64,000 bases of DNA from Candidatus Binatia bacterium (GCA_035544215.1 DATKHY010000004.1:62001-126000), one strand, 5' to 3'. Positions 9,080 to 40,093 are shown, numbered from the stretch's first letter. Numbers and translations: made by a program. Notes: generated by a model from the sequence alone, not told the origin.

Positions 9080-10143
9080 TCGCGCCGAGGCCGTTATCAC
9101 TTTTGTGCGAGGTGACGTATCGCTGCAATCTGCAGTGCCCGTACTGCTACAACCCGTTGGCGCTGCGGGAGTATCGCGACGAGCTCGAGACCGAGCAGTG
9201 GTGCGACGTGCTCGGGCAGGCGGCCGCGCTCGGCGTCGTTCAGGCACACTTCTCGGGCGGCGAGCCGACGCTGCGGCGCGACCTCGCGGCGATCGTCGCG
9301 TGCGCGTCCGGCGCGGGCCTGTATACGAACCTGATCACGCAGGGCACGTTCCTGGACGACTCCATGCTAGACGAGCTGCTCGCGAGCGGACTCGACCACG
9401 TGCAGATCAGCGTCCAGGCACCCGAGGCCGCCCTCGCGGATCGCATCGCCGGCGCGACGGCGCACGAGCGCAAGCTGGACGCGCTGCGGCGCGCGCTGCA
9501 GCGCGACGTCGCCGTCACGCTCAACTGCGTGCTGCACCGGCTCAACCACGATGCGATCGGCGACGTGATCGCGCTCGCGCAGGAGCTCGGCGTCCGCCGC
9601 CTGGAGCTCGCCAACGTACAGTTTTACGGATGGGCGTATCGCAATCGCCTGGCATTGATGCCGACGCGCGAGCAGGTCGAGCGCGGCGAGGCCGCCGTCG
9701 CGGCGGCGCGCCAGCGCCTGCGTGGCGCGATGGAGATCGTCTACGTGCTGCCGGATTACTTCGACGAGTTTCCTAAGCCGTGCATGAACGGCTGGGGACG
9801 ACAGTTCATGACCGTTACGCCGAACGGCACCGTGTTGCCGTGTCCGGCGGCGGCGGCGATCCGCACGCTGCGCTTCGAAAACGTGCGCGAGCGCGCGCTC
9901 GGCGAGATCTGGGGCGAGTCGGATTCGTTCCGCTGCTACCGCGGTACCGGCTGGATGCCCGAGCCGTGCCGCTCCTGCGAGCGTCGCGAGATCGACTGGG
10001 GCGGCTGCCGCTGCCAGGCGTTCTTGCTCACCGGCGATGCCGGCGTCACCGACCCGGTCTGCTCGCTGAGCTCCGATCATCACCTCGTCGCGGCGCTGCG
10101 CCACGGCACGCAGGAGCGCAAACTGGTCGCTCGCCGGGCGTGA
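9076..10143 (+). CDS. pqqE: Radical SAM enzyme PqqE
   Basis: 355 residues. The radical SAM cluster motif CNLQCPYC uses Cys17, Cys21 and Cys24. The C-terminal SPASM region has further cysteines (PCMNGWG, LPCPAAA, CRSCERREIDWGGCRCQ, DPVCSL) for auxiliary iron-sulfur clusters. PqqE forms the carbon-carbon bond between Glu and Tyr of PqqA. It is coupled to pqqD by ATGA and to pqqB by GTGA. Confidence 0.96.
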   Translation: MIAPRPLSLLCEVTYRCNLQCPYCYNPLALREYRDELETEQWCDVLGQAAALGVVQAHFSGGEPTLRRDLAAIVACASGAGLYTNLITQGTFLDDSMLDELLASGLDHVQISVQAPEAALADRIAGATAHERKLDALRRALQRDVAVTLNCVLHRLNHDAIGDVIALAQELGVRRLELANVQFYGWAYRNRLALMPTREQVERGEAAVAAARQRLRGAMEIVYVLPDYFDEFPKPCMNGWGRQFMTVTPNGTVLPCPAAAAIRTLRFENVRERALGEIWGESDSFRCYRGTGWMPEPCRSCERREIDWGGCRCQAFLLTGDAGVTDPVCSLSSDHHLVAALRHGTQERKLVARRA

Positions 10144-11072
10144 TCTTCCGGGTCCTCGGTTCGGCCGCCGGAGGAGGCGTGCCGCAGTGGAACTGCGCCT
10201 GCGCGAACTGCTCGGCGGCGCGCGAAGGCCGGCGGCCGCCGCGCACGCAGTCGAGCGCCGCGGTCAGCGGCGACGGCGCGCGCTGGCTCCTGCTCAACTG
10301 CTCGCCCGACGTCGCCGCGCAGATCGAAGCCTTCGCGCCGCTGCATCCTGCACCGCCGCGCGGCACGCCCATCGCCGGCATGCTCGTCACCGACGCGAAC
10401 GTCGACCATCTCGGCGGCCTCGCGGTGCTGCGCCAACACGGCGAGCGCGGCTTCGTCGTGCGCTCGAGCCGAGTCGTCCGCGCGATCGCCGTGGCGCAGC
10501 CCGCGTTCGCCGCCTTCGCTCGGCCGCCGCATCGCTGGCTGGATGCGCCGCTCGGCGCCCCGTGCGACGCCGGCGGCGACGAGGACCTCGTCGGCAACCA
10601 GCTCGCCGCGCGCGCGATCCGAGTGCCCGGCACGACGCCGGGCTACGACGGCCGCCGCAACATGCGCGGCGCCGTAGTCGCCTACGAGATCGCCGATCGC
10701 CCTTCGACTCGCTCAGGACAGGCTCCGTCAAAGGAGAAGCGCCTACTCTTCGCGCCGGTCTTCGCGGAAATTGACGAAACGCTCGAGCGTTCGATAAGGT
10801 CCGCGAGCGTCGCGATCCTCGACGGATCCTTCTACAGCGACGACGAGCTCGTCGCGCAGGGCCTCGCGAGCAAGCGCGCCCGCTCGCTGGGTCACCTTCC
10901 GGTGGGCGGCGCCGGCGGCACGCTGGAAAGACTGCGCGACATTAAGACGCGCGTGATCTTCACGCATCTCAACAACTCCAACCCGATGCTCGATCCCGAC
11001 TCCCCCGCCGCCGCGCGCGTACGCGAGCTCGGCGCCGAGATCGCGTACGACGGGATGGAGCTCACTCTCTAG
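10140..11072 (+). CDS. pqqB: PQQ biosynthesis metallo-beta-lactamase-fold protein PqqB
   Basis: 310 residues from GTG 10140 (GTGA overlap with pqqE). The N-terminus [18 protein letters not shown] and the later [12 protein letters not shown] and [12 protein letters not shown] are PqqB signatures. PqqB is an iron-dependent hydroxylase acting on the Glu-Tyr intermediate before PqqC. A segment around residues 188-200 ([12 protein letters not shown]) is encoded by a dispersed palindromic repeat and looks like an insertion. The gene is last in the operon, whereas pqqB usually follows pqqA. Its TAG stop is shared (CTAG) with the convergent phosphoesterase. Confidence 0.94.
10701..10734. repeat. Dispersed palindromic repeat copy inside pqqB
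   Basis: CCTTCGACTCGCTCAGGACA followed by a partial inverse copy. The core CCTTCGAC-n-GCTCAGG is shared, in inverse orientation, with 38269-38287 and 38816-38834. Read in the pqqB frame it gives PSTRSGQ. Confidence 0.6.
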
Positions 11073-36705: not shown

Positions 36706-38517
36706 TCAGCGCAGTAGTTCGACTCGGGAGGGATAGATCGGCCGGTTGATGATGCGCTGGAGCGTCATCGCCGGCGCGGTCAGCGCGAGGTTGGAAAACT
36801 GCGCGAACGCCTCCCGAGTCGCCTCGCCCTCCGCGTAGCGCTCGTTGCGCTCCATTTCCACCTTACCGGTGATGGGCAGGAAGCGCACGAAGCGCCCTTC
36901 GTCGTCTTCGCTCACCTCGACGAGGCCGGAATCCGCGAAGACGCGCAGCGCCGCGCCGATCGTGCGGTCCGCCACACGCTCGATGTCCAAGATGCCGGCG
37001 AGCTGCGCGTTGTCGCCACGCACCAAAGCCTGTCGTGAGCCCGTCGCAGGGTGCGCGAGGCTGCGCAGTCCGCGGTAGATCTCGCGCAGCCGCGGCAGCG
37101 GCGGAGCGTCGAGATCGATGAGATACTCGTTGAGCGCGCGGTCGTGTTCGCCGTAGAGCAGATGGATGCGCGCGGGCGCGCCGTCGCGCCCGGCCCGGCC
37201 GGCCTGCTGGTTGAACTCGCCGAAATCGAAGTTGAGGTGGTAGAGCACGACGTTGCGCACGTCGGGCAGGTCGATGCCCTCGCCGAAGGCCGACGTCGCG
37301 ACCACGACGCGCAGGCTCCCCTCGCGAAAGAGCCGCTCCACCTCGAGTCGCTCGGCGTTCGGCATCTTCCCATGGTAGAAGACGACGCCATTGCCCAACG
37401 CTTTGCGCAGGCGCTGCGCGACCTTCGCGACCTCCGGCCGCGAGTTGCAGTACACGATGCCCTTCTCGCGCTCGCCCGCCGCGCCGAACAGGTCGGTGAG
37501 ATAGCCGATCTTGTCCTTGGTGTTGCGCGCGTCGGCGACCTCGAGGTTTTCGCGCACGGTAGGATCGATCACCCACGCGTCGATCTTCAGGTCCTCGACG
37601 ATGCGGCGAAACGCGTCGTCGCGCGCCGTCGCCGTCAGCGCGAGGATCTGCGGCGCTCCGAGCGCCGCGATCGTCGTCGCGAGGCGCGAGTACGCCGGGC
37701 GATGCCGCGACTCGTGCAGGTGGTGCGCCTCGTCGACCACGACGAAGGATGGCGCGCCGCCGCCTTGCAGCGCGTCGCGGTGGAACTCGAGAAACTCCGG
37801 CGTCGCGAGCACGACGTCCCACGCTCCCTCGCGCAGCGCGCGGAAGAGATCCTCGCGCTCCTCGTTGTCGATCGAGCCGTTGGCGCGAAAGCAGCGCAGC
37901 CCGAGCGGATCGAGCGTGCGGCGCAGCGCCTCGTACTGATCGTTGGCGAGCGCGCGCAGCGGATAGACGACGAGCGTCTTGGCGTCGCCACCCAGCGCGC
38001 GCATTGCCGCAGCGAACTGGAAGCAGAACGACTTGCCGCGCCCCGTCCCGAGCACCGCGAGCGTGTTCCTGCCGGCGTCCACTCGCTCGAGCACCGCCAG
38101 CTGCGCGGCGTGCGGCCGCGCGGAGCCGAGCAGCGCCGTGAGCACGGCCTCCTCGGCGTCGAGCTCGCCTCCGCGACGGGCGTGCGCGCGCTCCTGGCGC
38201 CGTCGCGGCGCGAGCGCGCCCGCCGATTCGCGCTCGACGAAGATGTTGACGCCGCGATGCTTGCCCTGCCCTGAGCCTGTCGAAGGGTCTTGCGAGCCTC
38301 CCGTCAGCGACGCGATCCTCGCGCGATAGCGCGCTCCCGCGTCGATTTGTGGCGCGATGTGCGCCGCCATGCGCCGGTTGAAGAATCCGAGCTGCAGGTT
38401 GCCGTAGTGCACGGCGATCGCGTTCGGGTCGTGCGGGTTGTGCGGCTCACGGCGCACCTCGAGCTCCGCGCCGACGCGCAGCCCGGCGATGACGTCTTGG
38501 CGCCCCTCGAACGACAC
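36706..38517 (-). CDS. RecQ-like DEAH helicase with N-terminal HIRAN domain; true start probably further upstream
   Basis: At least 603 residues. HIRAN domain: VSFEGRQDVIAGLRVG and REPHNPHDPNAIAV. Helicase core: GTGRGKSFCFQFAAAMRA (Walker A), VVVDEAHHLHESRH (DEAH), GIVYCNSRPEVAKVA and QQAGRAGRDG (motif VI). HIRAN domains bind DNA 3' ends, and the RecQ-like core unwinds DNA, so fork or recombination repair is likely. GTG 38517 cuts the first HIRAN strand: the same frame upstream reads PYATIGDAPRFHTKIAG directly into VSFEGRQ and stays open into secF without any ATG, GTG or TTG. Two repeat copies (PSTGSGQ, PATGSRQ) lie inside. Confidence 0.85.
   Translation of the reverse strand: MSFEGRQDVIAGLRVGAELEVRREPHNPHDPNAIAVHYGNLQLGFFNRRMAAHIAPQIDAGARYRARIASLTGGSQDPSTGSGQGKHRGVNIFVERESAGALAPRRRQERAHARRGGELDAEEAVLTALLGSARPHAAQLAVLERVDAGRNTLAVLGTGRGKSFCFQFAAAMRALGGDAKTLVVYPLRALANDQYEALRRTLDPLGLRCFRANGSIDNEEREDLFRALREGAWDVVLATPEFLEFHRDALQGGGAPSFVVVDEAHHLHESRHRPAYSRLATTIAALGAPQILALTATARDDAFRRIVEDLKIDAWVIDPTVRENLEVADARNTKDKIGYLTDLFGAAGEREKGIVYCNSRPEVAKVAQRLRKALGNGVVFYHGKMPNAERLEVERLFREGSLRVVVATSAFGEGIDLPDVRNVVLYHLNFDFGEFNQQAGRAGRDGAPARIHLLYGEHDRALNEYLIDLDAPPLPRLREIYRGLRSLAHPATGSRQALVRGDNAQLAGILDIERVADRTIGAALRVFADSGLVEVSEDDEGRFVRFLPITGKVEMERNERYAEGEATREAFAQFSNLALTAPAMTLQRIINRPIYPSRVELLR
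37034..37051. repeat. Decayed dispersed-repeat copy inside the helicase gene
   Basis: CGTGAGCCCGTCGCAGGG, a diverged form of CTGAGCCTGTCGAAGGG (38271-38287). In the helicase frame it gives HPATGSRQ. Confidence 0.4.
38269..38287. repeat. Dispersed palindromic repeat copy inside the helicase gene
   Basis: CCCTGAGCCTGTCGAAGGG, an imperfect palindrome (CCCT...AGGG with CGA/TGAG arms). It encodes DPSTGSGQ between the HIRAN and helicase parts. Confidence 0.65.
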
Positions 38518-38761
38518 GCCCGCGATCTTCGTGTGGAAGCGCGGCGCGTCGCCGATCGTCGCATAGGGGTCGCGCAGGTAGCCGTCGCTTCGCGCGAAGA
38601 GGCGCGCAACGAATTCGTCCGCGCCCGACTCCGCTTCGACGGGCTCGGCGTCGCTCAGGACCGGCGCCTGCGGCGCCGGCCGTTCAATCGAAAGGGGATC
38701 GGCTAGGGCACGAAGTGCCGCCTCGAAGGCAAGCTCCGAGCGCGTGGGCTCGGGGAGCGAC

Positions 38762-40093
38762 CTACTCCTTCGGTTGCTCTGAGCTGCTGGCTTGCTCTGA
38801 GCTTGTCGAAGTTTGCCCTGAGCTTGTCGAAGGGAACGGGTCGAGGTTGAGCGCGATTTCCTCGTGGCCTTGCTCCATCGCGGCGTCGTGCAATCCGGCC
38901 TGCTGCGCGTCGAGCGGATCGAGCGCGCCTTCTTCGCCCACGTACGGCTCCTCGACGGCGATGCCGCCGTCGTCGCGCTTCTTGCGATAGCGCTGCGGCG
39001 CCGCCGGCGCGGCGCTGCGCGCGGCTTTGGCCTTTGCGCGGCGTTCGCGGCGCGCGGCCACGATGTCCTCGCGCGCTACGCCGCCGCGGCTCTGCAGCGC
39101 GGTCGATTCGGAGCGCGCCCGCGCCGTCACCGTGCGGTCCTGGGCGAGCCCGGCGCGGCGGCGCCGCGCGGCCGCATCGAGCTGGCGCTTGCGGAAGACG
39201 AGCACGAGCGGTGCCGAGAAAAAGATAGAGTGGTAACCTCCCGATAAGATGCCGACGAGCAGAGCGAAGGCGAAGTTCTTCAGGCTCGCGCCACCGAGCG
39301 CCAAGAGCGCGACCAGCGTGATGACGACGGTCGCGAGCGTGTTGAACGAGCGCGTCATCGTTTGTTTGATCGACTCGTTGACGATCGTGTCGTAAGCCGC
39401 GCCCGCCATCAGCTTGGTGTTCTCGCGTATTCGGTCGAGGATGACGATCGTGTCCATGACGGAGTAGCCGATAACCGTCAGCACGGCGGCCAGGAACGCA
39501 TCGTCGGCACGCTTGTCGGCCAGCGCGTAGATGCCGATCATCATCGCGGCATCGCGCAGGAGCGCGATGACCGTGACGAGGCCGAAGATATAGTTCCAGC
39601 CGAAGCGGAACGCTATGTAGATGAACTGGATGCTCAGCGCGATCACGAGCGCCCACAGCGCCTTGGTGAGGTACTCGCGCCCGAGCGACGGGCCGACCGC
39701 CGTGATCTGCGACGCCGCGCGATCGACCGGCGCCACCGTGCCGAGCGCATTCCAGACCGGGGTCGAATTGTTGGCGAACGAGGTCTGCGTCTGGATGACG
39801 AACTGCGTGCCGTCGGTGCCGGCGGTCGTGACCGACTCCTCGGTCATGCCGAGGCTCGTCAGGGCCGCCCTGACCTTGTCCGCCGTGGTGGGCTGCGTGA
39901 ATTTCACGGCGATATCGGTGCCGCCCGTGAACGAGAGCCCGAGCCGCAGCATGTGCGACGGCTGGAACCCGTTTCCGCCCTTGAAGCCGTTGTAGATCAT
40001 CGACCCGAGGCCCAGCGCGATCACGAGAAACGAGATCGTCGATACGATGCGGTACCAGCCGACGATGTTCCAGTTGAGCCTGCGGAATAACAT
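38762..40093 (-). CDS. secF: Protein translocase subunit SecF
   Basis: 443 residues; the first about 310 are SecF (MLFRRLNWNIVGWYRI, GLSFTGGTDIAVKFT, RIRENTKLM with SIKQTMTRSFNTL). It has six membrane segments and, with SecD, uses the proton or sodium gradient to complete protein export. An unusual C-terminal tail of about 130 residues is rich in Arg/Lys/Ala (RRERRAKAKAARS) then acidic (EEPYVGEEGALDPLD), and its last residues come from repeat copies (PSTSSGQTSTSSEQASSSEQ). Confidence 0.95.
   Translation of the reverse strand: MLFRRLNWNIVGWYRIVSTISFLVIALGLGSMIYNGFKGGNGFQPSHMLRLGLSFTGGTDIAVKFTQPTTADKVRAALTSLGMTEESVTTAGTDGTQFVIQTQTSFANNSTPVWNALGTVAPVDRAASQITAVGPSLGREYLTKALWALVIALSIQFIYIAFRFGWNYIFGLVTVIALLRDAAMMIGIYALADKRADDAFLAAVLTVIGYSVMDTIVILDRIRENTKLMAGAAYDTIVNESIKQTMTRSFNTLATVVITLVALLALGGASLKNFAFALLVGILSGGYHSIFFSAPLVLVFRKRQLDAAARRRRAGLAQDRTVTARARSESTALQSRGGVAREDIVAARRERRAKAKAARSAAPAAPQRYRKKRDDGGIAVEEPYVGEEGALDPLDAQQAGLHDAAMEQGHEEIALNLDPFPSTSSGQTSTSSEQASSSEQPKE
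38777..38834. repeat. Tandem dispersed-repeat copies at the 3' end of secF
   Basis: A complete copy CCCTGAGCTTGTCGAAGGG (38816-38834), a second CTCTGAGCTTGTCGAAG (38795-38811) and a partial CTCTGAGCTG (38777-38786), spaced about 20 bp. They encode the Ser/Thr/Gln-rich C-terminus of SecF. Confidence 0.65.

Follow-up and report, generated by a model that had tools for sequence, protein, structure and literature searches.

Short palindromic inserts in an Eremiobacterota genome and a GIY-YIG nuclease as candidate mobiliser of REP-type hairpins

A short palindromic repeat, read in frame as PST-x-SGQ or a close variant, interrupts protein-coding genes in a 64,000-nucleotide stretch of contig DATKHY010000004.1 (positions 62001-126000, assembly GCA_035544215.1; hereafter the window) from the genome of a soil bacterium belonging to Candidatus Eremiobacterota. 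These copies are insertions relative to orthologues, and they are probably mobile hairpins of the repetitive extragenic palindromic (REP) type served by a GIY-YIG nuclease. Inverted copies bracket the gene for this single-domain nuclease within the genus as well as in other phyla, and in further lineages local repeats, classical CGTC-type REPs included, take that place. The GIY gene and its repeats come and go as a block between close relatives. With a little less confidence, we favor a broader reading, in which single-domain GIY-YIG nucleases bracketed by inverted palindromes would, throughout bacteria, be the dedicated mobilisers of GTCAT/CGTC-type REPs (including dRS3), replacing the REP-associated tyrosine transposase (RAYT), and the in-gene hairpins of the window would be their non-autonomous offspring.

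The inserts and their hairpin

The core of the repeat, CCTTCGAC-NN-GCTCAGG, has three exact matches in the window, namely those in pqqB and at helicase site 1 (Table 1) and one at 38817-38833 (minus strand). A further copy with two mismatches lies at 38796-38812 (minus strand). Shuffles of the window gave no exact match, and a mean of 0.13 with three mismatches allowed, so that the repeat reported by an earlier note in pqqB, in a helicase gene and at the end of secF is borne out. The units of the secF array, three in number, follow one another at steps of 18 and 21 nt. Across the window's own genome (3.23 Mb, 9 contigs) we counted 19 core copies, and none of a reversed-letter control.

Comparison with orthologues lacking the insert, the check proposed in that note, confirmed nine extra codons in pqqB and insertions in two helicase loops. 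The pqqB product has gained nine residues (RPSTRSGQA) relative to 13 orthologues. At helicase site 2 the gain is six residues, PATGSR, and only the congener G007 (SSTGSGQ) has an insert, the other aligned orthologues being without one; the decayed copy noted near 37034 is therefore genuine, with its codons within 37030-37050. The loop at helicase site 1 is variable in length among orthologues, and the congener G008 has a decayed copy at the same place. A member of genus g52 (L065) carries an independent-looking copy, APSTSSGQA, in this same loop (window 38263-38289), and this apparently separate insertion hints that the element prefers this target or that both lineages tolerate inserts there. 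The ages of the inserts differ, as had been proposed from the decayed copy; the G007-shared insert at site 2 and the decayed G008 copy at site 1 both agree with this. Distant orthologues are without the PST-x-SGQ residues, so the objection that these are ordinary protein sequence fails. Measured against orthologues, the inserts are 18-27 nt long, and the difference between two loci that are 89% identical (L036 and L126) is a nested 24-nt insertion.

The full element spans about 26-28 nt and reads GTCAYCCT-TCGACNNGCTC-AGGRTGAC(A). The better-preserved copies of the congener G003 have the sequence GTCATCCTTCGAC-AR-GCTCAGGATGACA, partial tandem units often follow them, and one copy sometimes lies inside the loop of another; copies thus nest and expand to tandem arrays. 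Stem covariation was assessed in 233 cases at loci from other collections, found with the arms left free by searching for TTCGAC-NN-GCTCA. Stem pairs 1-3 were complementary in 222, 223 and 203 of these cases, compared with 179, 141 and 114 expected under independence. Since the stem changes by compensation, what is conserved is the pairing and the loop, not one fixed word: the stem is kept by pairing around a fixed TTCGAC-NN-GCTCA loop. Single-strand folding gave z ~ -3.9 and a predicted loop of 11 nt. AT comes first in the stem, most copies end (N)GTC-AT, and this GTC can pair with GAC at the opposite end; the consensus after the stem is GACA, with no GTAG at the ends.

Core copies number 7-121 in each of 18 genomes of the genus, 0-26 in 19 other genera of the family and 0-1 in the 23 remaining genomes, which come from the order, class and phylum. 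The exact 28-mer was found, among the matches listed, in about ten phyla; these matches include Nitrospirota, Nitrospinota, Bacteroidota/Ignavibacteria, Spirochaetota and Alphaproteobacteria and, further, Patescibacteria, Calditrichota, Neomarinimicrobiota and Syntrophaceae, many of the carriers being metagenome-assembled genomes (MAGs), with one cultured Stygiobacter. Carriage by phages was rejected, a 25-mer occurring in only 15 of 2.9 million viral contigs. In the congener G011, 0.7 Mb around dnaA (C1:1048510-1748509, with dnaA at 1447372) has no copies and 121 lie elsewhere, and contig C7 of the window's own genome has none beyond 1.09 Mb, with dnaA there at 1.417 Mb. A replication-strand bias of the copies in G011 was dropped once a reverse-pattern search recovered the minus-strand copies. 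The GC-skew map of G011 gave a signal too weak to use, and its sampled parts held no convincing match to a dif site.

A GIY-YIG nuclease gene between inverted repeats

Clustering of the open reading frames (ORFs) around copies from many phyla yielded one shared small gene, which encodes a single-domain GIY-YIG nuclease, and no further family of small mobile-type genes that recurs next to the repeat in different phyla. The protein matches PF01541 (E ~1e-16 or better, residues 4-76 of ~100) and, by phmmer, 1zg2 (E 2.6e-12). The GIY-YIG fold has a catalytic tyrosine, arginine and glutamate; Y17, G19, R27, H31 and E65 are invariant in our alignment A1. At six loci (L170, L111, L184, L289, L113 and L215) the elements bracket the gene as '< gene >', and at several of these the element supplies the C-terminus or stop of the gene.

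A survey among 60 relatives separated the GIY-YIG genes into two groups, GIY-A and a housekeeping GIY-B. GIY-A occurs in 13 of the 18 genomes of the genus and, elsewhere in the family, in 6 of 19 genera. Inverted repeats bracket it at 19 of 19 loci from genus and family, compared with none of nine GIY-B loci (L355-L363) and none of 703 ordinary genes in sampled stretches of G011. The bracketing repeat is a local variant in other genera (G022, G025, G026, G027 and G036), and within the Eremiobacterota genus the GIY-A gene stands in several distinct genomic contexts. The window's own genome has a GIY-A unit outside the window, at C3:617997-618269 (L345). A second copy in this genome (G000:C6:12448-12695) is split over two frames and is probably a decayed unit.

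The earlier note had suggested looking for a REP-type transposase. None was found: Y1_Tnp (PF01797) is absent from all 41 genomes searched (18 from the genus, the window's own among them, 19 from further genera sampled in the family and 4 from elsewhere in the order), with positive controls, and the gene found instead was that of the GIY-YIG nuclease. RAYT, a Y1 HUH tyrosine transposase, was therefore rejected as the mobilising enzyme in the genus and in the sampled family and order.

For other phyla, 43 genomes were picked for carrying the 28-mer, and GTCAT-type hairpins bracket most of their high-scoring GIY genes. Inverted copies bracket the gene in Nitrospirota and Bacteroidota. In a Thermodesulfovibrionales MAG the gene is bracketed by TGTCATTCCTGCGAAAGCAGGAATCCAG, a classical CGTC form; in Neisseria gonorrhoeae it is bracketed by dRS3-type repeats, and in Azospirillum lipoferum 4B, Shinella, Novosphingobium aromaticivorans and Sphingobium by CGTC-type repeats. 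Four yazA/yhbQ-type housekeeping genes used as controls (Bacillus, Listeria, Klebsiella and Radiobacillus) gave bracket scores at the level of shuffles. Genes of the REP-side clade from Photobacterium, Planktothrix and Rhizobium tumorigenes had no clear bracket. At one Neomarinimicrobiota locus (L380) a quite different hairpin repeat (GGTTGCTTCGGTACGCC..) brackets the gene, and the pairing of GIY gene and repeat may therefore extend beyond GTCAT-type repeats.

Close relatives differ by the whole unit. In A. lipoferum 4B the GIY gene and its REPs lie between sufB and sufC, and three congeners with flanks 95-97% identical have neither gene nor REPs. In Sphingobium, TomTYG46 and TomMM7A carry the unit whereas TomTYG72 lacks it. 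In TomTYG74 (L413, ~925-965) a single hairpin, resembling the outer halves of the two REPs, occupies the place where relatives have the whole GIY unit, and this is possibly a route by which solo REPs arise.

Reading frames within genes

The copies in the window and their host genes are listed in Table 1. A census with a codon model placed 151 copies from three congeneric genomes (G000, G003 and G011), 113 of them intergenic and 38 in or at genes. Among the 38, LRQAQ was read in 17, internal PSTxSG in 5 and PSTGSG ending on the element's TGA in 8; the remainder were LSLSK on the opposite strand (4), FDKLR (2) and PEPVEG-stop (2). The earlier note held that the repeat is always read as PST-x-SGQ. 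This is true of all four sites in the window, which read PST/PAT-x-SGQ/SRQ, but genus-wide LRQAQ is the commonest reading, and the spread of readings contradicts the idea of the same frame each time.

Table 1. Host genes and inserts in the window
Feature	Position	Strand	Basis
pqqB, host gene of the first copy	10140..11069	+	ORF, codon-model gene call, orthologues in family
Insert RPSTRSGQA in pqqB, 27 nt, in frame	10698..10724 (core 10701-10717)	+	absent from 13/13 orthologues
Helicase gene, host of two inserts	36706..38517	-	ORF; orthologues in 61/61 genomes
Helicase site 2, insert PATGSRQ, older, decayed	37030..37050	-	six extra residues common only to congener G007
Helicase site 1, insert DPSTGSGQG, in frame, variable loop	38263..38289 (core 38270-38286)	-	most orthologues without insert
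secF, host gene of the array	38762..40093	-	ORF, codon-model gene call
SecF C-terminal tail (PSTSSGQTSTSSEQASSSEQPKE), three core-like units in array	38762..38833	-	repeat units 38774-38832, translation

In the full palindrome (..GGATGAC) a TGA closes the PST frame, which is open in right-arm variants with GGRCAR, to which the window copies belong; the change from GGATGAC to GGRCAR removes the stop, and the element therefore becomes readable as PSTxSGQ. At eight loci (L019, L028, L035, L260, L261, L291, L294 and L303) the host gene takes its stop codon, a TGA, from the element itself (..PSTGSG or ..PSTSSG). The LRQAQ and FDRLR frames are both open in the full palindrome, and the 17:2 ratio of LRQAQ to FDKLR thus suggests selection for a hydrophilic reading, although the rows are not all independent (arrays, paralogues). 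The proposed selection for a harmless hydrophilic insert accordingly survives as a bias toward the hydrophilic frame, with copies tolerated in loops and tails, but not as one universal frame. LRQAQDD copies also stand directly after the lipobox cysteine (L023 at 2765, 9165 and 1238; L298:5699; L306:1043 and 2432), and this post-lipobox position is a repeated tolerated site in lipoproteins.

Candidate mobilisers and relation to known repeats

We propose that the GIY-YIG nuclease may recognize the extruded hairpin or cruciform and nick or cut the DNA there. Repair or strand transfer could then seed hairpin copies at new sites, in trans too, and the nuclease would take the part played by RAYT/TnpA-REP for GTAG REPs. 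Insertions within genes would persist only if the frame is open and the copy falls in a loop, in a lipoprotein tether or at one end of a protein.

At a bracket threshold (inverted-repeat score) of at least 14, applied to all loci, 38 of 57 loci of the REP-side clade are bracketed compared with none of 18 housekeeping GIY genes (p 1.8e-7), an effect size biased upward because the first GIY profile was made from repeat-adjacent genes and ~25 of the 57 loci come from repeat-selected genomes. A tree splits this clade from the housekeeping group with support of 93/68 (few columns). In a sample drawn without regard to repeats, namely the order surrounding an alphaproteobacterial MAG, 12 of 29 loci have clear inverted repeats, most though not all of the GTCAT type. 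Along with the selection bias, several observations count against the nuclease as mobiliser. About a third of the REP-side clade is without a strong bracket. Core copy number has a median of 21 with GIY-A and 0 without (p 1e-7, ancestry ignored), an association driven by the genus, with p only 0.048 outside it. GIY-A was not detected in five congeners with 7-42 copies, two of these being 95% complete, and G022 and G027 have GIY-A but no copy of this core, carrying their own repeat variants instead. No target-site duplication was established, as the empty-site junctions in Azospirillum and Sphingobium are too diverged to call one. Finally, both the movement of the element and the cleavage of its hairpin are inferred from sequence comparisons.

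The main rival, which we consider unlikely, holds that the GIY-YIG gene encodes a free-standing homing endonuclease and lands in REP pairs, like some insertion sequences, as a passenger and not the mover. The GIY-YIG fold is classically that of homing nucleases, some insertion sequences are known to target REPs (PMC1525189), and inverted REP pairs are common, so that a gene inserted between two of them would look just as observed. However, the empty sites in the three Azospirillum congeners and in Sphingobium TomTYG72, few as they are, have neither gene nor REP, and the REPs therefore arrive together with the gene; moreover, lineages use different repeats, each matching the local family. We give somewhat less credence still to the idea that an enzyme other than the GIY-YIG nuclease (a DDE or serine transposase) moves the repeats, or that host repair copies the hairpins, with the GIY association a by-product of shared intergenic islands. 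Some congeners do retain many copies without GIY-A, and nesting and tandem growth are compatible with replication slippage at hairpins, but neither housekeeping GIY genes nor the 703 ordinary genes are bracketed, and the ORF clustering revealed no second small mobile-type family that accompanies the repeat from phylum to phylum. That the repeats arose by point mutation, as DNA uptake sequences or some other signal selected by the host, is very improbable: a short conserved word in many genes and intergenic regions would fit, whereas copies that are 18-27 nt indels and not substitutions, empty sites, compensatory stems and very uneven copy numbers inside one family would not. Although linkers are often rich in P, S, T, G and Q, a chance DNA likeness among ordinary low-complexity protein sequences can practically be dismissed, given zero counts in shuffles and the reversed-pattern control, the same DNA in other frames and between genes, and residues that nearly all orthologues lack and that recur in distant ones only as the independent-looking insert of genus g52.

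The present hairpins recall the CGTC-tagged REPs, which include Neisseria dRS3 and Rickettsia RPE-4 and RPE-6 (Di Nocera et al., 2013, PMC3733652). That survey detected no dedicated transposase for the CGTC superfamily and left the mover open, and the GIY-YIG nuclease is a candidate for the enzyme these REPs were said to lack. Both groups are short hairpins starting (C/T)GTC-AT, with intergenic and in-frame genic copies, a patchy distribution over several phyla and no adjacent Y1 transposase. CGTC families have an 8-9 bp stem, a 4-5 nt loop, a CCA-like unpaired tail and only rare tandem arrays (PMC3733652), whereas the present element has a short inner stem, the 11-nt predicted loop, no CCA tail and common tandem arrays. 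CGTC families also place AT first in the stem, as here, and bear at one end an unpaired CGTC tag (or TGTC/CCTC), where most of the present copies have (N)GTC-AT with a GTC that can pair. Because stem and loop size and tail differ, we do not file it as a CGTC member.

GTAG REPs and REPINs are associated with RAYT (TnpA-REP) in 'REPtrons' (PMC2817692, PMC3116915, PMC6006769). Similar to REPtrons, inverted palindromic repeats here surround one small nuclease gene, with many solo copies elsewhere in the genome; in contrast, the enzyme is GIY-YIG and not an HUH tyrosine transposase, there is no GTAG/GGAG tag, and PF01797 is absent from the host lineage. Rickettsia palindromic elements (RPEs) are palindromic inserts read in frame by proteins of unrelated families, whose loops and ends tolerate them (PMC3733652). 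The likeness drawn to them earlier holds for dispersed inserts of unequal age, read in frame within unrelated proteins and tolerated in loops and tails, whereas the present element is shorter (18-27 nt), probably differs in sequence, also forms abundant intergenic arrays and has a candidate enzyme. UPF0213/COG2827 proteins (YazA, YhbQ; PDB 1zg2, 1ywl) have the same single domain as the REP-linked GIY-YIG; YazA/YhbQ and the Eremiobacterota housekeeping paralogue fall on the far side of the deep branch (93/68), without bracketing repeats. With I-TevI-type homing endonucleases the nuclease shares a catalytic fold and the idea of a nuclease spreading its own DNA, but the present unit has no intron or intein, and the hairpin repeats that form its ends also spread by themselves.

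In the open-access literature, preprints being outside the scope, we came across no publication that connects GIY-YIG with REP, dRS3 or palindromic repeats, and nothing relevant on the insert peptides or core DNA strings; we claim the GIY-YIG/REP link as new within that limit. REPs are among the commonest bacterial repeats, and the question of CGTC-REP mobility becomes directly testable through a small GIY-YIG protein whose flanking hairpin is defined. If the proposal is true, a non-HUH enzyme would join REP mobility, REPs would be tied to the structure-specific and homing nuclease fold, and the entry of short inserts into proteins (loops, lipoprotein tethers, stop codons) in many phyla would be easier to explain.

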